A stretch of DNA of 64,000 nt from Anaerolineaceae bacterium oral taxon 439 (GTDB lineage Bacteria; Chloroflexota; Anaerolineae; Anaerolineales; Anaerolineaceae), in contig CP017039.1 of assembly GCA_001717545.1 (NCBI GenBank), forward strand, positions 2,542,001-2,606,000, written 5' to 3'. Positions within the stretch are counted from its first letter, which is position 1, and each line of letters starts with the position of its first letter. The notes beneath the pieces are model-generated. The model searched no databases and was not told the origin of the DNA. It saw only the letters and a list, made by a program, of their open reading frames with translations. Shown here piece after piece: positions 12,184 through 44,109 of the stretch. The translations under genes and the position numbers were made by a program.

Positions 12184-12239
12184 ATAGAAAGCAAGCTTTC
12201 ACAGCATGACTTCTTTGGTTCGAAGAAGCATTCTCGATC

Positions 12240-12330
12240 GCAATTCGACAGGTAATCGGACTTCCGGATAACCGGTCACCGTAGCGCCACTGTGCGGGAT
12301 TCACACCCGCTTCCCCCGATTCGAATCGGT
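12240..12330 (-). promoter_or_regulatory. cobalamin (B12) riboswitch controlling nrdG-nrdD
   Basis: Read on the minus strand the segment has the conserved cobalamin aptamer core: GGGAAGCGGGTGTGAATCCC, then GCACAGTGGCGC, then TACGGTGACC, and the B12-box-like AGTCCGATTACCTGTCG (12262-12246). Helices close as expected: ATTCGA (12326-12321) with TCGAAT (12248-12243), and ATCGG (12320-12316) with CCGAT (12259-12255). The aptamer is compact (about 85 nt), like the smaller variant class. It lies directly downstream of a consensus promoter and upstream of an 11-bp terminator, so ligand binding should stop transcription of the B12-independent reductase when B12 is available. Confidence 0.92.
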
Positions 12331-12345
12331 AAAATTGATACCGCG

Positions 12346-18884: not shown

Positions 18885-18912
18885 TTGACAGCTTTCCAAA
18901 CAACCCTATAAT
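18885..18912 (+). promoter_or_regulatory. consensus promoter of the argGH leader
   Basis: TTGACA (18885-18890), a 16-base spacer and TATAAT (18907-18912) are both perfect consensus hexamers. The expected transcript start, seven to eight bases on, coincides with the ATG of the leader peptide at 18920. Confidence 0.9.
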
Positions 18913-18919
18913 TAGCTCC

Positions 18920-18988
18920 ATGAATCAAGAGCAGATCCACCACAGCATCCGACGACGAATCCGAATTCAAAATCATCCGCGGAGTTAA
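18920..18988 (+). CDS. arginine-rich attenuator leader peptide
   Basis: A 22-codon reading frame beginning at the predicted transcript start. Arginine occupies positions 11, 12, 13, 15 and 21 (codons CGA, CGA, CGA, CGA, CGG), that is 5 of 22 residues with an RRRIR core. It lies between a consensus promoter and an intrinsic terminator just before argG, the layout of ribosome-mediated attenuators such as those of the his, trp and phe operons. No Shine-Dalgarno is present; the ATG would be at the 5' end of the mRNA, so leaderless initiation is inferred. A ribosome stalled on codons 11-15 would leave bases 18979-18992 free; one reaching the stop (18986-18988) would cover them. Confidence 0.8.
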   Translation: MNQEQIHHSIRRRIRIQNHPRS

Positions 18989-18992
18989 CGGG
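18979..18992 (+). promoter_or_regulatory. antiterminator arm of the argGH leader
   Basis: Bases 18979-18992 (GCGGAGTTAACGGG) can pair with 19022-19035 (CTCCTGAATTCCGC) at 12 of 14 positions, including an unbroken 8-bp run 18979-18986 with 19028-19035. The partner covers the loop and most of the 5' arm of the terminator, so the two structures exclude each other. A weaker 5-bp pairing of 18964-18968 with 18982-18986 could sequester this arm. Confidence 0.65.
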
Positions 18993-19015
18993 TTCGTTTA
19001 ATCTATCTGGTTATC

Positions 19016-19048
19016 AAAGACCTCCTGAATTCCGCAGGAGGTCTTTTT
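19016..19048 (+). terminator. attenuator terminator before argG
   Basis: AAAGACCTCCTG (19016-19027) pairs perfectly over 12 bp with CAGGAGGTCTTT (19035-19046) around a 7-base loop and runs into T5. It lies 27 bases upstream of the argG start with no full gene before it, so it serves to block entry into argGH rather than to end a gene. Confidence 0.9.
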
Positions 19049-19074: not shown

Positions 19075-20316
19075 ATGTCGCAGAAATTGAACAAAGTTGT
19101 TTTAGCGTATTCGGGCGGATTAGACACTTCCGCAATTATTCCCTGGCTGATCGAAACGTACGGCTGCGAAGTGGTTTGCGCCTGCGCCAACGTCGGACAG
19201 GAAGAAGAACTCGCCGGACTGGAAGAGCGCGCGAAAGCCTCGGGGGCCTCGAAGCTGTACGTTCAGGACCTGACGGACGAGCTCTGCGAATCGTATATCT
19301 GGCCGATGATCAAGTCGGGAGCGGTCTACGAGAAAAACTACCTGCTCGGGACGTCGATCGCGCGCCCGATCGTCGCGAAATGGCTGGTTGAGATCGCTGA
19401 AAAAGAAAACGCCGACGCGATTGCGCATGGCTGTACCGGAAAAGGCAACGATCAGGTCCGCTTCGAAAACACGATTCAGGCGCTCAATCCGAATTTAGAC
19501 GTCATCGCGCCGTGGCGCGTCTGGAATTTTACTTCGCGCGAGGACCTGATCGCGTATATCGAATCGAAAAACCTCCCCTATCCGGACACGGCGCGCAACC
19601 CGAAGCTGTTCAGCCGCGACCGCAACATCTGGCACATTTCGCATGAAGGCGGGCCGATCGAAGCGATCGACGCCGAACCGGACGAAGCCTGGTACGTGCT
19701 GACCGTGTCGCCGGAAGCCGCGCCGGATCAGGCCGAAACCGTCGGGATCGAGTTCGTCGCCGGAGAAGCCGTCGCGCTGAACGGAAAGAAAATGAAACCC
19801 GCCGAGCTCCTCCGCGAGCTGAATCGAATCGGCGGACGGCACGGGATCGGACGCACGAATATCGTCGAGAACCGGCTTGTCGGAATGAAATCGCATGGCC
19901 TGTACGAAAATCCGGGCGGCTCGATCCTCTACGAGGCGCATACACAGCTTGAATCGATTACGCTCGACCGCGACACGCAGCATTTTAAAGAGATGGCCGC
20001 CGTCCGCTATAGCGAGCTGATCTACAACGGCCAGTGGTTTTCGCCGCTCTGCGATTCGCTGAACGCTTTTTTCGCGGAAAGCAACCGCAGCGTTACCGGC
20101 ATGGTAAAGCTCAAGCTGTACAAAGGCAATATCATCCCGGTCGGCATCTCGTCGCCCTTCTCCCTTTATTCCGAAAAAATCGCGTCCTTCGGGGACGTCA
20201 CCCTCTACGACCACAAAGACGCGACCGGCTTTATCCGCTGTTTCACGCTTCCGAGCCGCGTCCGCTCCGCAATGGAAAAAGGTCAGGGTAAAGCGATTTC
20301 AGCCGATCTAAACTGA
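19075..20316 (+). CDS. argG: argininosuccinate synthase
   Basis: A 413-residue enzyme that joins citrulline and aspartate with ATP to give argininosuccinate, the penultimate step of arginine synthesis. The N-terminal P-loop VLAYSGGLDTS is the ATP-binding signature; GCTGKGNDQVRFE follows near residue 120. Length is normal. The ATG at 19075 is chosen because AGGAG (19061-19065) is nine bases upstream; an in-frame TTG at 19069 would be only three bases from it. argH follows after 57 bases. Expression is predicted to depend on the Arg leader peptide and terminator upstream. Confidence 0.98.
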   Translation: MSQKLNKVVLAYSGGLDTSAIIPWLIETYGCEVVCACANVGQEEELAGLEERAKASGASKLYVQDLTDELCESYIWPMIKSGAVYEKNYLLGTSIARPIVAKWLVEIAEKENADAIAHGCTGKGNDQVRFENTIQALNPNLDVIAPWRVWNFTSREDLIAYIESKNLPYPDTARNPKLFSRDRNIWHISHEGGPIEAIDAEPDEAWYVLTVSPEAAPDQAETVGIEFVAGEAVALNGKKMKPAELLRELNRIGGRHGIGRTNIVENRLVGMKSHGLYENPGGSILYEAHTQLESITLDRDTQHFKEMAAVRYSELIYNGQWFSPLCDSLNAFFAESNRSVTGMVKLKLYKGNIIPVGISSPFSLYSEKIASFGDVTLYDHKDATGFIRCFTLPSRVRSAMEKGQGKAISADLN

Positions 20317-38806: not shown

Positions 38807-40753
38807 ATGAATAAAACCGAAAATCAGCTGTCAGAAGCGACAGCGGAAAAACCGCGCCCGTTCGCGATCATCGAACGGCTCCTCATCGGGAAGCCGTTAG
38901 CGACCGAAGCGTTGGCGCATGAGACGATCGGGAAAGGCGTCGGCCTGGCCGTCTTCGCTTCCGACGCGTTATCGTCCATGGCGTATTCGACGCAGGAGAT
39001 GATGTTCGTGCTGGCGGCGGCGGGAACGGCGGGATTCAATTTCATCATGCCGCTGACACTGCTGACCGTCGCGCTGCTGGCGTTGCTGACAATTTCGTAT
39101 GAACAGACGATCCACGCCTATCCGAACGGAGGCGGCGCCTATATCGTTTCCCGCGATAACCTGGGCGACGTTCCGGCGATGATCGCCGCGGCCGCGCTGC
39201 TGACCGATTATATTCTGACCGTCGCGGTCTCGATCTCCTCCGGCGTCTCGCAAATTACTTCGATCTTTCCCGAATATTACGCGTACCGCGTCTGGATCGC
39301 CGTTGTCTTCGTCCTGATCGTCATGCTCATCAATTTACGCGGAGTCAAGGAAGCCGGAATCGTCTTCGCGATCCCGACGTATATCTTTTTAGGCGCGATT
39401 GCCCTGATGGTCCTGATCGGATTCTTCCGATTTTTTACCGGATCGCTGGGGACGGTCGTCGATCCGCCGCGGCTGGAAATCGACGGCGGGTTTCAGGCGG
39501 TCAGCCTTTTCCTGATCCTGAAGGCGTTCGCGACCGGAACGACCGCGCTGACCGGCGTTGAAGCGATTTCGAACGGGATCACCGCGTTTAAAGAACCGCG
39601 GACGAAAAACGCAGGCCAGACGCTGATGATGATGTCGACGATTTTAGGCGTGCTGCTGATCGCGGTTTCCTTCCTGAGTTTCCGCGCGCAGGCCGTTCCT
39701 TCCGAATTGGAAGGAAATATTTCGCAGCTCGCGCGCACGGTCTACGGCTCAAAAAACCTGCTCTACCTGATTACCGTCGGGGCCACGATGATTATTCTGG
39801 TCATGGCGGCGAATACGGCGTTCGCCGGGTTTCCGCGGTTGAGCGCGATCCTCGCGCAGGACGGATTCCTCCCGCGCCGGTTCGCCTGGAAAGGAACGCG
39901 CCTCGTCTTCACGTCCGGAATTATTTTCCTGTCGATCGTCGCGATCGCGCTGATCCTCTTCTTTCAGGCCAGCGTCAACCGCCTGATCCCGCTGTACGCG
40001 GTCGGCGTTTTCTTCTCGTTCACGCTTTCGCAGTTCGGCATGGCGAAGCGATGGCGAAAGAGCGGGCGGCTTTCCAGCGGCGAATCGATCGAGACGCATG
40101 GGAATCCGTTGACGTACGATCCAAAATGGGCGTTCAAAATGATCGCCAACGGTGTCGGCGCGGCCGCCTCCGCAGCGATCGCGCTCGTTTTCGCCATTAC
40201 AAAATTTACCTCGGGCGCATGGGTGATCCTGATCCTGACGCCGCTCCTCGTTGTCCTCTTCGCGCGGATCAAACGTCATTATGACTGGGTCGCGCGCAGC
40301 CTGTCCCTGAGCCATGGGGTATCGCGATCGGTCGAGATTAATAAGAATCATATGATCCTGCTCCTGAGCGGCGTGCATCAGTCTTCGCTGAAAGCGTATC
40401 ATTACGCGAAAACCTTAGCGCCGGAGCTGGAAGTCGTTCATGTCGAAATCGACCCGGAAAAAACCGAAAAAATGCGCCAAAGCTGGGAGAAATGGAGCGA
40501 CGGCGATCCGCTGATCGTGCTGCCCTCGCCGTATCGGCACTTGCTCACGCCGATCCTGAAATTTATCACCGACCGCGCCAACGCGTTAGCTCCCGACGAA
40601 GTCCTTACGGTTCTCGTCCCGCGTTTTATCAGCGACGCCGTCGGCGGCTCGCTTCTCCACGCGAATAACGCGGACGTGCTGCGAAAGGCGCTGATCGGGT
40701 TCCCGAAAATCGTCGTTACCGAAATTCCGTTTAACCTGAACGAAATTAAATAG
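38807..40753 (+). CDS. kimA: KimA-type potassium transporter (APC superfamily)
   Basis: A 648-residue membrane protein matching the KimA/YdaO K+/H+ symporter family along its length. Near residues 50-64 it has FASDALSSMAYSTQE, then YEQTIHAYPNGGGAYIVSRDNLG, TDYILTVAVSISSGVSQITS, and ALTGVEAISNGITAFKEP (the last two near 125-145 and 245-262). Twelve helices are followed by a cytoplasmic domain from about residue 505 (HMILLLSGVHQSSLKAYHYAK), which in Bacillus subtilis KimA binds c-di-AMP and shuts uptake. The start at 38807 is preceded by GGGGTAAAAAC and gives the family N-terminus; the frame is open to 38576, but that part is Lys/Arg-rich and unlike the family. It takes up potassium at low concentration. 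Confidence 0.88.
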   Translation: MNKTENQLSEATAEKPRPFAIIERLLIGKPLATEALAHETIGKGVGLAVFASDALSSMAYSTQEMMFVLAAAGTAGFNFIMPLTLLTVALLALLTISYEQTIHAYPNGGGAYIVSRDNLGDVPAMIAAAALLTDYILTVAVSISSGVSQITSIFPEYYAYRVWIAVVFVLIVMLINLRGVKEAGIVFAIPTYIFLGAIALMVLIGFFRFFTGSLGTVVDPPRLEIDGGFQAVSLFLILKAFATGTTALTGVEAISNGITAFKEPRTKNAGQTLMMMSTILGVLLIAVSFLSFRAQAVPSELEGNISQLARTVYGSKNLLYLITVGATMIILVMAANTAFAGFPRLSAILAQDGFLPRRFAWKGTRLVFTSGIIFLSIVAIALILFFQASVNRLIPLYAVGVFFSFTLSQFGMAKRWRKSGRLSSGESIETHGNPLTYDPKWAFKMIANGVGAAASAAIALVFAITKFTSGAWVILILTPLLVVLFARIKRHYDWVARSLSLSHGVSRSVEINKNHMILLLSGVHQSSLKAYHYAKTLAPELEVVHVEIDPEKTEKMRQSWEKWSDGDPLIVLPSPYRHLLTPILKFITDRANALAPDEVLTVLVPRFISDAVGGSLLHANNADVLRKALIGFPKIVVTEIPFNLNEIK

Positions 40754-40822
40754 CCGGTTTATCCAAGGAAAAATTGGCTGTCATATTCTTTCCGCCGGGA
40801 GGAATCTTTTATCGGAATAAAG

Positions 40823-40831
40823 TGATATAAA
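40823..40831 (+). promoter_or_regulatory. extended -10 promoter of the phenylalanine leader
   Basis: TGATATAAA (40823-40831) ends seven bases before the leader-peptide ATG at 40839, the same spacing as in the argGH leader. No good -35. Confidence 0.5.
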
Positions 40832-40838
40832 CGGAGAC

Positions 40839-40919
40839 ATGAACAAATCGATCGCATTCGCACATTTCTTTTTCTTTTTTGGCTTTGATCGCCGGCTGAA
40901 ACCTGTGCAGCGCGGATAG
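40839..40919 (+). CDS. phenylalanine-rich attenuator leader peptide
   Basis: A 26-residue reading frame with Phe at positions 7, 10-14 and 16 (core HFFFFFGF), 7 of 26 residues. GGAG lies four bases before its ATG. It is followed within 26 bases by an intrinsic terminator and then by two genes for TrpX-family binding proteins. Composition and layout match the pheL and pheST leader peptides of enteric bacteria. A ribosome stalled at codons 10-16 would disrupt the hairpin 40892-40915 and free the antiterminator arm 40902-40910; a ribosome at the stop (40917-40919) would cover it. This makes Phe-tRNA charging the likely signal. Confidence 0.85.
   Translation: MNKSIAFAHFFFFFGFDRRLKPVQRG
40892..40915 (+). 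promoter_or_regulatory. protector hairpin and antiterminator arm of the Phe leader
   Basis: GCTG (40895-40898) pairs with CAGC (40908-40911), extended by CCG (40892-40894) with CGG (40913-40915). In the alternative fold CCTGTGCAG (40902-40910) pairs over 9 bp with CTGCACGGG (40950-40958), one G-T pair, which takes up part of the terminator 5' arm and its loop. The two folds are mutually exclusive. Confidence 0.7.
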
Positions 40920-40944
40920 ATTTGCTCGTCCAACCGGATAAGCG

Positions 40945-40972
40945 ACCTCCTGCACGGGCAGGAGGTTTTTTT
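40945..40972 (+). terminator. attenuator terminator before the TrpX-family genes
   Basis: ACCTCCTGC (40945-40953), loop ACGG, GCAGGAGGT (40958-40966), then T7. It stands 38 bases before the first binding-protein ATG and shares the CCTCCTG/CAGGAGG core with the argG attenuator. Confidence 0.92.
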
Positions 40973-41010
40973 ATTCCGGGAACCGATTCCGTTCAATAGA
41001 GGAGAGAACC

Positions 41011-42000
41011 ATGTTAAAGAAGAGAATTTTATCTGTGTTGATTGTCGTTTTGACGCTTTCGCTGTCCGCCGGTCTCGCCAGCGCACGGGACGCTGAATCG
41101 CGCTTCAGCGTCGGCGTCCTGCAGCTCGTTGAACACGCGTCGTTGGACGCCGCCTACGAAGGCTTCGTCGCAGGATTGGCGGAAGCCGGATTTGTCGTGG
41201 ACGAAAACCTGACGATCGATTTTCAGAACGCCCAGGCCGACCAGTCGAACATGGTCACGATCAGCGAACGTTTCGTCAAGAATAAGGTCGACCTGATCCT
41301 CGCGATCGCGACCCCGGCCGCTCAGGCGGTCGCCGCCGCTACGACCGAAATCCCGATCGTTTTCACGGCCGTTACCGATCCGGTCGAAGCCCGTCTCGTC
41401 GAAACGCTCGAAGCGCCGGGAACGAATATCACGGGCGTCAGCGACGCTGGCCCGATCGATGAGCAAATCGAACTCATCGCCGCGCTCGTTCCCAAGGCTA
41501 AAACGATCGGGATTTTGTACAATTCATCGGAGGTCAATTCAGAAATCCAGGCCAAACAGGCGGAAGCGGCCGCCAGGCGGATCGGACTGGAAGTAAAGTT
41601 CGGGACGGTCGCCTCGGTCAACGATATCGAGCAGGTCTTAACGTCGATTTCGGACGACGTCGAAGCGATTTACCTGCCAACCGATAATACCTTCGCCTCG
41701 GCGATGGCGAATGTCGCCAAGGTCACAGAAGCGAAAAAGCTCCCGGTCATCGCCGGAGCGCAGAGCATGGTCGAAGAAGGCGGACTGGCCACGATCGGGC
41801 TCGATTACTATAAGCTGGGCTTGCAGACGGGCGCGATGGCGGCGAAGATCCTGAACGGTGAAAGCGAACCTGCGACGACGCCGGTTGAGACGCTTCAGGA
41901 TACCGATCTGATGATCAATTTTGATACCGCGAAAGCGATCGGCTATACTTTCCCGCCCGAAATTCTCGCGGAAGCCACGATCAGAATCGGGAAAGAATAG
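41011..42000 (+). CDS. ABC transporter substrate-binding protein, TrpX-like (PF04392), copy 1
   Basis: A 329-residue exported binding protein with a signal peptide (residues 1-25, ending ASA-R). The mature part matches the ABC_sub_bind (PF04392) family: VGVLQLVEHASLDAAYEGF, NAQADQSN, DLILAIATPAAQA, FTAVTDPVEA, GILYNSSEVNSE and YLPTDNT mark the two lobes. Streptococcal TrpX of this family binds an aromatic amino acid. With the Phe-rich leader upstream, phenylalanine or another aromatic amino acid is the likely ligand; this is inference. GAGGAG precedes the start. The paralogue follows, but no permease or ATPase gene is nearby. Confidence 0.88.
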   Translation: MLKKRILSVLIVVLTLSLSAGLASARDAESRFSVGVLQLVEHASLDAAYEGFVAGLAEAGFVVDENLTIDFQNAQADQSNMVTISERFVKNKVDLILAIATPAAQAVAAATTEIPIVFTAVTDPVEARLVETLEAPGTNITGVSDAGPIDEQIELIAALVPKAKTIGILYNSSEVNSEIQAKQAEAAARRIGLEVKFGTVASVNDIEQVLTSISDDVEAIYLPTDNTFASAMANVAKVTEAKKLPVIAGAQSMVEEGGLATIGLDYYKLGLQTGAMAAKILNGESEPATTPVETLQDTDLMINFDTAKAIGYTFPPEILAEATIRIGKE

Positions 42001-42107
42001 TTAAATAAAAGCGCCCGCGCGGATCGGATCGAAGATTCAGTCCTGACGCTTTAGCGCTTTGCACTGTAACGCTTTATGGTGGTAAAATAAGGGAAACGAA
42101 TCGTTAA

Positions 42108-42134
42108 GCGGGAACGCTTCGCGCGCCCGCATTT
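42108..42134 (+). terminator. hairpin between the two binding-protein genes
   Basis: GCGGG (42108-42112) and CCCGC (42126-42130) enclose a CGC-TTC-GCG mini-hairpin and are followed by ATTTTAC. It may partly end the first transcript. TAAAAT at 42083-42088 is a possible -10. Confidence 0.4.
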
Positions 42135-42163
42135 TACAAGTTCATCTTTTCAGGAGCTACGTT

Positions 42164-43135
42164 ATGAAAAAAGCTGTCTTTACCCTGATTCTCGCGCTCT
42201 GCCTCGCGATCCTGACCCCGTTCGCGTCGTTCGCCCAGACCGACGCTATCCAAATCGGCGTCCTTCAGCTCGTTGAACATCCGGCGCTGGACGCCGCATA
42301 CAAAGGATTCGTCGACGGGTTAGCCGAAGCCGGATTCGTCGACGGCGAAAATATCGAAATCGACTTCCGCAACGCGCAAGCCGACCAGTCGAATCTGATG
42401 ACGATGAGCGATCGTTTCGTTAAGAATAACGTCGACCTGATCCTCGCGATCGCGACGCCCGCGACGCAGTCCGTCGCCTCGGCGACCAGCACGATTCCGA
42501 TCCTGTTCACCGCTGTAACCGATCCGGTCGCAGCGCGCCTCGTCGAGAGCTGGGAAAAGCCGGGACTGAACGTGACCGGCGTCTCCGATATCGGCCCGAT
42601 CGAAGATCAGATTAACCTCTGCCGGCGACTCCTCCCGGAAGCGAAAACGATCGGGATCATCTATAACTCGTCCGAAGTCAATTCGGAGGTCCAGGCCAAA
42701 GAGGCCGAAAAGTACGCGAAAGAAGCGGGCTTCAAAGTCGAATTCGGGACCGTAACTTCGGTCAACGACATCGAGCAGGTCGCGACTTCGTTAGCCGCGA
42801 AATCGGATATCTTCTACGTCCCGACCGATAATACGATCGCCTCAGCGATTCCCAACCTCGTCCAGGTCGCACAGGAAAAAGGACTCCTGATCGTCGGCGG
42901 CGAAGAAGGCCAGGTTGAGTCCGGCGCCGCCGCCACGATCAGTATCAGCTACTATAAATTAGGCCTGCAAACGGCAGCGATGGCGGTCAGGATCCTGAAA
43001 GACGGAGCAACCCCGGCGGATCTTCCCGTCGAAAAGCTTGAAGATACCGACCTGATTATCAATCAGGCTTACGCCGATGAAATCGGCTACACGTATCCGA
43101 AGGAGATCCTCGACGCCGCGAATACGGTTTACTGA
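42164..43135 (+). CDS. ABC transporter substrate-binding protein, TrpX-like (PF04392), copy 2
   Basis: A 323-residue paralogue of the preceding protein, with signal peptide 1-24 (FASFA-Q) and the same blocks: GVLQLVEHPALDAAYKGF, NAQADQSN, FTAVTDPVAARLVE, GIIYNSSEVNSE, FYVPTDNT, YYKLGLQTAAMA. The two proteins are similar along their whole length, so they arose by tandem duplication and then diverged. AGGAG precedes the ATG. The gene ends overlapping the 3' end of the convergent ribonuclease Z gene by 7 bases. The ligands may differ slightly; both probably use the same permease encoded elsewhere. Confidence 0.88.
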   Translation: MKKAVFTLILALCLAILTPFASFAQTDAIQIGVLQLVEHPALDAAYKGFVDGLAEAGFVDGENIEIDFRNAQADQSNLMTMSDRFVKNNVDLILAIATPATQSVASATSTIPILFTAVTDPVAARLVESWEKPGLNVTGVSDIGPIEDQINLCRRLLPEAKTIGIIYNSSEVNSEVQAKEAEKYAKEAGFKVEFGTVTSVNDIEQVATSLAAKSDIFYVPTDNTIASAIPNLVQVAQEKGLLIVGGEEGQVESGAAATISISYYKLGLQTAAMAVRILKDGATPADLPVEKLEDTDLIINQAYADEIGYTYPKEILDAANTVY

Positions 43136-44109
43136 TTTGAAATCGCCGGGGAAGGCCGGTCCGATTCAGACGATCGGTCGCTGTCTTCCGCGCCTTTCGG
43201 AACTCGAAAAGTATCGAAATCACGCGCGACGACCGTATTCGGAAAAACCGCCGCCGCTTCCCGGAGGATATTGCGGTCGCGGTACCGGCGCGAAACATGC
43301 GTCAGGAAGAGCCGACCGACCCCGGCGTCCTTCGCCAGCTGCGCGCTCATGCGCGCGGTCAAATGCGAATAATGCTTCGCCATATCGGCGTCTTCTTCAA
43401 GGTAGGTCGCCTCGATAACGAGCGCGTCCGCGCCGCGAACAATATCGACGAGCCGACGCGGCTCGCCGCAGTCGCCAACGACGACCAGCCGCGTCCCAGG
43501 GATTTCGTCGCCTAAAACCTCCGTCCCGGAGATGACCCGTCCGTCCGGAAGCGTAACCGAGTTTCCCAGCGCCAATTCGCGCCGCCAGGGTCCCGGCGGG
43601 ATCGAAAGCGCTTCCGCCCGTTCGGGTAAAAACGGTCGCCGGCTCTTGCGCTCGAAAATATAGCCGAACGAATCCGTGCCGCGATGCACCACCGGGAAAC
43701 AGGACAGACAGAAATCCGCCGTTTCCAGGATCGGACGATCCGGGTCAACTTCATTGAATTGAATCATCGCCGGGACGCGCGTCCCGCGGCAGACGATTTT
43801 CGTCACCAGGTCATTAACCCGAGCCAGCGTCTCGCGTCCGCCATACAGATGAATCGCGTCCATCGATTCCCAGCGGATCATCGTCGAGAGCAGCCCCGCG
43901 ACGCCCAGAATATGATCCAGATGCCCATGTGTCAGTAAAATTCTATTCAGGTTCCGGAATCCCAACCCGGACATCAGGATCTGCCGCTGCGTCCCCTCGC
44001 CGCAATCCACTAAAAACCGATTCTCCGCATAGCGGATCATCAACGCCGGCAAGGACCGCTGAATCGAAGGCGCGGATGCCGATGTGCCTAAAAATGTCAG
44101 TTCAAACAA
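43129..44109 (-). CDS. rnz: ribonuclease Z
   Basis: A 326-residue metallo-beta-lactamase-fold endonuclease that trims the 3' ends of tRNA precursors. The zinc motif THGHLDH has His61, His63, Asp65 and His66; further ligands are in FPVVHRGTDSFGY near 142, VVGDCGE near 214 and the C-terminal LTHVSRRY near 276. FLGTSASAPS at the N-terminus is the family opening. The start is TTG at 44109, the only one that keeps this motif. The last ~20 residues (from GAEDSD) are an acidic/Ser tail. It overlaps the binding-protein gene tail to tail. Confidence 0.93.
   Translation of the reverse strand: MFELTFLGTSASAPSIQRSLPALMIRYAENRFLVDCGEGTQRQILMSGLGFRNLNRILLTHGHLDHILGVAGLLSTMIRWESMDAIHLYGGRETLARVNDLVTKIVCRGTRVPAMIQFNEVDPDRPILETADFCLSCFPVVHRGTDSFGYIFERKSRRPFLPERAEALSIPPGPWRRELALGNSVTLPDGRVISGTEVLGDEIPGTRLVVVGDCGEPRRLVDIVRGADALVIEATYLEEDADMAKHYSHLTARMSAQLAKDAGVGRLFLTHVSRRYRDRNILREAAAVFPNTVVARDFDTFRVPKGAEDSDRSSESDRPSPAISNQ

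Follow-up and report, generated by a model that had tools for sequence, protein, structure and literature searches.

The enteric operons pheA and pheST are controlled by the leader-peptide attenuators pheL and pheM. For uptake genes, an amino-acid-specific RNA element is known in Streptococcus suis, where trpX is under T-box control (PMC9382623), and T-boxes have been used to predict the substrates of transporters (PMC2494555). ABC-leaders and leader peptides of Firmicutes have been predicted (PMC2965389), as well as His-leader attenuators in the same group (PMC9413887), so that, according to the accessible parts of both papers, attenuators may precede ABC transporter genes and leader peptides occur outside Proteobacteria and Actinobacteria.

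The window analysed here is the whole stretch of 64,000 nucleotides taken from the single-contig 2.95 Mb genome of Anaerolineaceae bacterium oral taxon 439 (G000). In it, a short ORF with a run of Phe codons precedes two tandem genes of TrpX-like binding proteins, SBP1 and SBP2 (Table 1). The element is in all likelihood a ribosome-mediated transcription attenuator, through which the supply of charged tRNA-Phe would control the gene of SBP1, a putative phenylalanine-binding protein. Like pheL and pheM, it combines a Phe codon run, a protector, an antiterminator and a terminator with a presumed coupling of translation to transcription, whereas its targets are uptake binding proteins instead of biosynthesis or a synthetase, it belongs to another phylum, its leader mRNA is predicted to be near-leaderless, and in relatives a Tyr version is found beside the Phe leader. 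With the trpX T-box it shares the control of an uptake gene by an amino-acid-specific RNA element that points to the substrate, although a T-box reads tRNA directly and the SBP1 leader would depend on a ribosome translating the leader peptide. The predicted ABC-leaders and His-leaders concern other amino acids and phyla, and paralogue-specific leader pairs were not seen in the accessible parts of those papers (PMC2965389, PMC9413887), the first of which does not mention 'Chloroflexi' in that part. Among the matches listed for the open-access literature, none described an uptake gene with a Phe/Tyr leader, or a leader-peptide attenuator from Chloroflexota. The first-pass annotation, made from the sequence of the window, considered the attenuation of an uptake system by a Phe leader unusual; attenuators of ABC genes had been predicted before in other bacteria (PMC2965389). 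The element is very probably a genuine attenuator of a known kind, in a phylum and before a target for which no precedent was found in print, and it carries an amino acid code that runs paralogue by paralogue.

Table 1. Features of the phenylalanine leader, of the genes behind it and of other RNA elements in the window (positions are those of the 64 kb window)
Feature	Position	Strand	Description and basis
Extended -10 promoter-like element	40823..40831	+	TGATATAAA; prediction; ends 7 bases before the leader ATG
Leader peptide ORF	40839..40919	+	MNKSIAFAHFFFFFGFDRRLKPVQRG, then stop; 26 codons, ATG to TAG
Regulatory Phe codons	40866..40886	+	TTC TTT TTC TTT TTT (GGC) TTT; five consecutive at 40866-40880, the sixth at 40884-40886 after a Gly, another Phe codon at 40857; Tyr codons here before Tyr-type paralogues
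Protector hairpin	40892..40915	+	40892-40898 with 40908-40915; 7 pairs, one bulge
Antiterminator 5' strand	40902..40910	+	CCTGTGCAG; pairing and folding; 9 pairs with the 3' strand, two of them G-U
Antiterminator 3' strand	40950..40958	+	CTGCACGGG; within the terminator 5' arm and loop
Intrinsic terminator	40945..40972	+	ACCTCCTGC-ACGG-GCAGGAGGT and T run; arms 40945-40953 with 40958-40966, T run ends at 40972; stem near-invariant in 14 leaders
SBP1	41011..42000	+	PF04392 / TrpX-like; Ala250 and Tyr266; predicted to bind phenylalanine; profile and alignment
SBP2	42164..43135	+	PF04392 / TrpX-like; Glu at the Ala250 position; without its own leader; profile and alignment
Arginine leader ORF before argG	18920..18988	+	MNQEQIHHSIRRRIRIQNHPRS, then stop; RNA-model hit in the window
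Arginine-leader terminator	19018..19048	+	AGACCTCCTG-AATTCCG-CAGGAGGTCT, followed by a T run; its stem resembles the one in the Phe terminator
Candidate arginine attenuator region	18885..19048		
Arginine antiterminator	18979..18986 with 19028..19035		GCGGAGTT with AATTCCGC; 8 bp; by eye
argG	19075..20316		
AdoCbl riboswitch	12200..12341	-	Rfam

The leader ORF, protector, antiterminator and terminator lie where the first-pass annotation had placed them and follow each other in the classical order; the antiterminator and the terminator overlap and are therefore mutually exclusive. Its statement that all parts fall within 150 bases of the first binding-protein gene was slightly off, as the ORF starts 172 bases upstream of the SBP1 start at 41011. 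The operon consists of the two tandem binding-protein genes and contains no permease or ATPase, since the next gene after SBP2, of the metallo-beta-lactamase/tRNase Z type, is located on the opposite strand. Upstream, an APC-type permease gene of the same strand ends at 40753, 85 bases before the leader ORF. An APC homologue followed by two TrkA-type genes precedes the binding proteins in five of eight relatives, while in G003 the two TrkA-type genes are found at the contig end, G001 has neither there, and the contig of G007 begins past the region (Pfam assignment of the neighbours was run on the G002 copies only).

The position of the permease gene might suggest that the hairpin is simply its terminator and that the Phe ORF arose by chance, but this is hardly credible. 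Another terminator-like hairpin is closer to the permease gene, at 40785-40805 (sites of this kind are no commoner than in shuffles), and in six genomes the leader and terminator precede the second tandem gene, behind another binding-protein gene. Moreover, the Phe/Tyr runs are kept while other residues of the peptide change, and the chance rate is low: the leader, with its terminator, is the window's sole short ORF in which Phe/Tyr residues form a run of at least four, compared with 0.47 such ORFs per 64 kb in 30 dinucleotide shuffles, and 0 with a terminator. The motif TTYTTYTTYTTYTTY was observed once, with 0.02 expected and presence in 2 of 100 shuffles. A simple terminator scan of 40700-43250 found four terminator-like sites against 4.4 in shuffles, the leader terminator having the most pairs (10) of the four. 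The fold of the whole leader (40823-41011) has a z of only -2.1, with 5 of 200 shuffles equally good; beside such modest fold statistics, it is the conservation in relatives that makes the predicted attenuator convincing.

In total, 101 genomes were searched, and 16 of them encode a relative at E <= 1e-20. Binding proteins of the close type, with 59-66% identity to SBP1, are found in nine members of the genus including G000 and number 16 genes, a count that leaves out a third piece in G011 (C491, 115 aa). Fourteen of the 16 genes, spread over all nine genomes, are preceded by an aromatic leader together with a terminator of the same kind (ACCTCCTGCAC..CAGGAGGT or close to it); seven of these leaders are Phe, five Tyr and two mixed. 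Phe leaders precede SBP1 in G000, G001, G002 and G011, and SBP2 in G008, G003 and G007; Tyr leaders precede SBP2 in G001, G002 and G011, and SBP1 in G003 and G007, some of them (G001, G002, G011, G003) containing one or more Phe as well. The mixed leaders, FFFFGYYFY and YFFFGYYFY, belong to the single genes of G009 and G010. Thus five of the seven tandem pairs combine a Phe with a Tyr leader, in reversed order in G003 and G007. The upstream regions of SBP2 of G000 and SBP1 of G008 were read and contain no leader. A promoter-like box, TGATATAAA, is present upstream of SBP1 of G008 (L117 10740-10963) despite the absence of leader and terminator there.

The first-pass annotation had named the loss of the Phe run in close relatives that keep the genes as an argument against itself; the run is kept in all eight close-gene relatives, in two of them mixed with Tyr. 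Its main claim, that a Phe leader-peptide attenuator precedes binding proteins of the TrpX family, is supported by this retention of the aromatic leader and terminator. An RNA model found no comparable site in the five genus members that have no close genes (G004, G005, G006, G012 and G013; best E 0.03 to 1.06). It could also be supposed that the leader peptide is a functional small protein acting in trans, a role reported for one leader peptide, peTrpL, in the accessible part of PMC7298713. Between copies, however, the remaining peptide varies and little is shared outside the Phe/Tyr run, and this idea can be given next to no weight.

While the terminator stem hardly changes, its loop is variable, and in some copies the upstream antiterminator strand follows the loop. 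The antiterminator has been remade in other letters, for example GUUUGC:GCAAAC in G008 and CGGUGUG:CACACCG before SBP2 of G002, and is only 6 bp long in four copies. Because the register differs between copies, a swap test was chosen over column-by-column covariation, with the G011 copies, which are near-copies of those of G002, left out here and in the residue counts below. As to covariation in relatives, proposed earlier as a check, the changes appear partly compensating: among 12 distinct copies, cognate strands paired at a mean of -12.7 kcal/mol and swapped ones at -11.0 kcal/mol, with 3 of 20000 permutations as low, a result inflated by relatedness, but the own partner was best or equal best in only 3 of the 12. 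In some copies, the search for the longest pairing with the terminator gave a T-rich part of the ORF and not the antiterminator. A protector-like local hairpin is found at the same place in all 12 distinct copies, covering all or part of the antiterminator strand.

Conserved terminators and antiterminators, together with the fact that translation of the leader is a prediction, would also be compatible with an RNA that binds Phe or Tyr directly, in the manner of a riboswitch, the ORF being incidental. This is very improbable, considering that conservation between the ORF and the terminator is limited to short stretches, that Rfam at the gathering threshold gave no match there, either in the window or in L004, L006, L008, L009 and L012, and that Phe- and Tyr-type copies differ in the codon run, in frame. 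In the whole window, Rfam at this threshold detected no leader family at all; its sole match was the AdoCbl riboswitch.

A -10-like box was found before all 14 leaders, ending 6-7 bases from the ATG in eight and 9-12 bases in six, a count that stands without a chance control and was obtained with a score rewarding TG before the box; some boxes are weak, such as TAAAAA (G008) and TATTCT (G007). A two-box scan of 40700-43250 revealed no two-box promoter at the leader and no convincing -35 element there. A Shine-Dalgarno-like GGAG between the box and the ATG occurs only in the window copy and in none of the other 13 leaders; AGGAG-like sites were seen by eye upstream of many of the binding-protein genes themselves. 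Given the proximity of the -10 box to the ATG and the lack of a Shine-Dalgarno sequence in 13 of 14 leaders, the leader mRNA is predicted to be leaderless or nearly so. If true, a ribosome could load once the 5' end emerges.

Regulation by the predicted attenuator would then proceed as follows. Transcription would start at or just before the leader AUG, with the ribosome trailing the polymerase. A shortage of Phe-tRNA would make the ribosome stall on the Phe run and leave 40902-40910 free to pair with 40950-40958, which would block the terminator and allow read-through into SBP1 and, probably, SBP2 behind it. When Phe-tRNA is plentiful, the ribosome would reach the stop codon at 40917 and cover 40902-40910, so that the terminator could form. 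The protector is presumed to have a role in this scheme.

Folding with and without a ribosome footprint, another check proposed earlier, gave a divided picture. With the footprint at the stop codon, the antiterminator is abolished (0 of 9 pairs on RNA to 40958) and the whole RNA forms 9 of 9 terminator pairs. If the footprint is placed instead on any of the six Phe codons, RNA to 40958 forms all 9 antiterminator pairs, but it does so without any ribosome too (9 of 9, with 0 protector pairs), as does 40880-40958, and once the RNA is complete, folding favours the terminator even if the ribosome is stalled. In the isolated fold of 40880-40935 the protector forms 7 of 7 pairs; other folds outcompete it in longer stretches. 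The folds therefore show how termination becomes possible with a ribosome at the stop codon, while the formation of the antiterminator without a ribosome means that folding implies neither a need for stalling nor a role of the protector; read-through would have to be settled by timing or by the ribosome at the stop codon.

SBP1 and SBP2 match PF04392 (ABC_sub_bind) with 295.6 and 306.1 bits (gathering cut-off 25.9), but score 375.2 and 359.2 bits with the TrpX equivalog NF041285, below its cut-off of 390, and are thus regarded as relatives and not called TrpX. The best three PDB sequence matches of SBP1 are CD0873, VC_1101 and SP1069, which in their published structures hold Tyr, Phe (3lkv) and Trp (3lft), respectively (PMC6816091). 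According to the accessible part of this source, the Tyr hydroxyl is bonded by Glu-263 in CD0873, where VC_1101 and SP1069 have Ala, the position of Tyr-279 is occupied by Gln in the Trp binder SP1069, and in a thermal shift assay with 20 amino acids Tyr stabilised CD0873. In the sequence alignment, SBP1 has Ala/Tyr at these two positions, as the Phe-binding VC_1101, and SBP2 has Glu/Tyr, as the Tyr-binding CD0873.

In the genus, the specificity residue (that aligned with Glu-263) agrees with the leader: it is Ala behind 6 of 6 Phe leaders, Glu behind 4 of 4 Tyr leaders and Glu behind both mixed ones, and both proteins without a leader carry Glu. G011 is not counted; its first protein has Ala and its second ends before this residue. 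Four ungapped columns separate Phe- from Tyr-leader proteins, one of them being the specificity residue. On a tree of 12 proteins, leader type and residue each need two changes, and both independent pairs agree, although two independent switches are too few for significance (p 0.5); when the tree is enlarged to 15 by the proteins without a leader, the residue needs four changes. Gene conversion within the tandems is possible. As the type of leader follows the Ala/Glu pocket residue, SBP1 is most likely for phenylalanine, and SBP2 is perhaps a Tyr binder, or one of Tyr and Phe, the prediction of Phe for SBP1 being well supported and that of Tyr for SBP2 less so. The earlier claim that both downstream proteins serve the uptake of Phe (or of aromatic amino acids) fits the Phe-type residue of SBP1, but SBP2 has the Tyr-type residue, so Phe is probably not the substrate of both.

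An attenuator could also stand before proteins that take Phe and Tyr alike, both in the tandems and behind the mixed leaders, with their differences due to drift or fine-tuning. Six clostridial relatives with Glu lie behind T-boxes read as TTC (Phe), the leaders of G009 and G010 are mixed, and the independent switches are only two; nevertheless, all 10 of the 10 proteins scored behind pure leaders carry the specificity residue, as published, that matches their leader type, and Tyr stabilised the Glu protein CD0873 (PMC6816091), which leaves such indifference unlikely, if well short of negligible. In other groups, the Glu and Tyr combination is found in most of the family members that were fetched. 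The clostridial T-boxes were located by Rfam (L042, L049, L056) or by a sequence pattern (L045, L051, L057, and a seventh locus, L061, whose specifier is not TTC); a further pattern matched no T-box at all. Their specifiers were read by eye as the codon after GAA, which we take to be the rule. The genome of the window also encodes a third PF04392 protein, 35% identical, with a linked permease and ATPase (G000:C1:2772132-2775989; L003; L114). Its gene follows a T-box with a specifier read as TGG (Trp); at 91.4 bits this T-box narrowly misses the gathering score of 93, which the counterpart in G008 passes. The pocket of this third protein (L003; L114; L031) has Glu and Tyr, unlike the published Trp binder. 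With Glu proteins behind T-boxes read as Phe in clostridia, and a Glu/Tyr protein behind one read as TGG, these readings indicate that Glu does not mean Tyr as a general rule. Taken together, the attenuator reading is strong and very probably correct, and the substrates are founded predictions.

The term transporter, used in the first-pass annotation, would suit the operon, which encodes no more than binding proteins, only if these work with an unlinked permease and ATPase. A likely candidate is the permease/ATPase pair at G000:C1:971000, which has no binding protein of its own and, by eye, is located among housekeeping-type genes; SBP1 and SBP2 would feed it. Relatives of this permease at 67-71% identity are present in five of the eight other close-gene genomes (G002, G008, G009, G010, G011) and in 0 of 5 genomes without close genes. 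G001, G003 and G007 have no relative at that level (in G007 and some others, 36 first-look candidates were scored). By eye, no convincing Phe/Tyr-run leader was seen at four unlinked permease/ATPase stretches.

The only other hit of the RNA model below E 0.001 in 14 genus genomes is the leader of argG in the window, with argG-argH downstream. Its peptide contains RRRIR with CGA codons, and TTGACA-N16-TATAAT ends 7 bases before the ATG; this is a candidate arginine leader-peptide attenuator, which most genus members share and which, as far as a loose test goes, recurs in the order. By this test, run without a control, an upstream ORF with at least three Arg is found in 26 of 30 argG loci, including 10 of 12 genus loci. 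In a promoter table of 24 loci (L206, L216, L219, L227, L228 and L229 left out; where several in-frame starts occurred one was picked, usually the inner), the distance from the end of TATAAT to the leader ATG is exactly 7 bases in 11 of 11 genus loci, as it is for TACAAT in L211, and 1 to 19 in the other 12. A class-wide covariance-model search of 396 genomes, drawn evenly and with stricter filters, gave 20 genomes at E <= 0.05, including G000. The 19 class-wide loci (L181-L199) and 11 weak genus hits (L170-L180) contain no convincing leader except the argG site, L170; since the single-residue-run scan applied to them was crude, the limits of the binding-protein element are provisional.

Genes of aromatic biosynthesis may have similar leaders. 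An aromatic ORF with a hairpin and T run was found in 4 of 30 prephenate dehydratase loci (L235, L240, L241, L246) and in none of the 14 genus loci (L244, L245, L247-L253, L255-L259; first copies, with flanks of 1.5 kb as far as the contig reaches). One such ORF (MYFFCRLIN...), with its hairpin and T run, is close to the prephenate dehydratase gene of G071 (L241 148). Aromatic leaders with a hairpin and T run precede chorismate mutase genes in G061, where the gene is fused to prephenate dehydratase, and in G015, and G075 has an aromatic leader before a similar chorismate mutase-type frame, judged by eye; these loci of other Anaerolineales are L240 918, L246 897 and L235 2371. Outside the phylum, four Vagococcus/Enterococcus loci (L050 3687-3911, L054 3615-3845, L055 3609-3852, L062 3716-3973) have aromatic leaders (e.g. 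MNIKSHLKLNSTNFFFSFFR) before a TrpX-family gene. Rfam sRNA_2410 (RF02863) begins at the end of this leader ORF, in three loci above the gathering score and in L062 just below it, so 'Enterococcus sRNA 2410' may belong to an attenuator leader instead of being an sRNA in its own right; the accessible part of PMC3166299 does not mention 2410.

A wider reading can be offered tentatively, as possible and somewhat short of probable: in Anaerolineaceae, and perhaps in much of Anaerolineales, leader-peptide attenuation on leaderless mRNAs would serve generally for the sensing of amino acids (Phe, Tyr, Arg, aromatic biosynthesis), the leader and the pocket of the binding-protein paralogues having switched together and so labelling their substrates. 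It is difficult to tell from its sequence what a binding protein binds, and the paralogues described here carry their own Phe or Tyr codon label, which within the genus agrees with the structurally known specificity residue and thus provides for a sharp binding test. If the attenuator is true, classical attenuation would extend to Chloroflexota and to binding-protein genes that stand apart from their permease, and possibly also to leaderless leader mRNAs.
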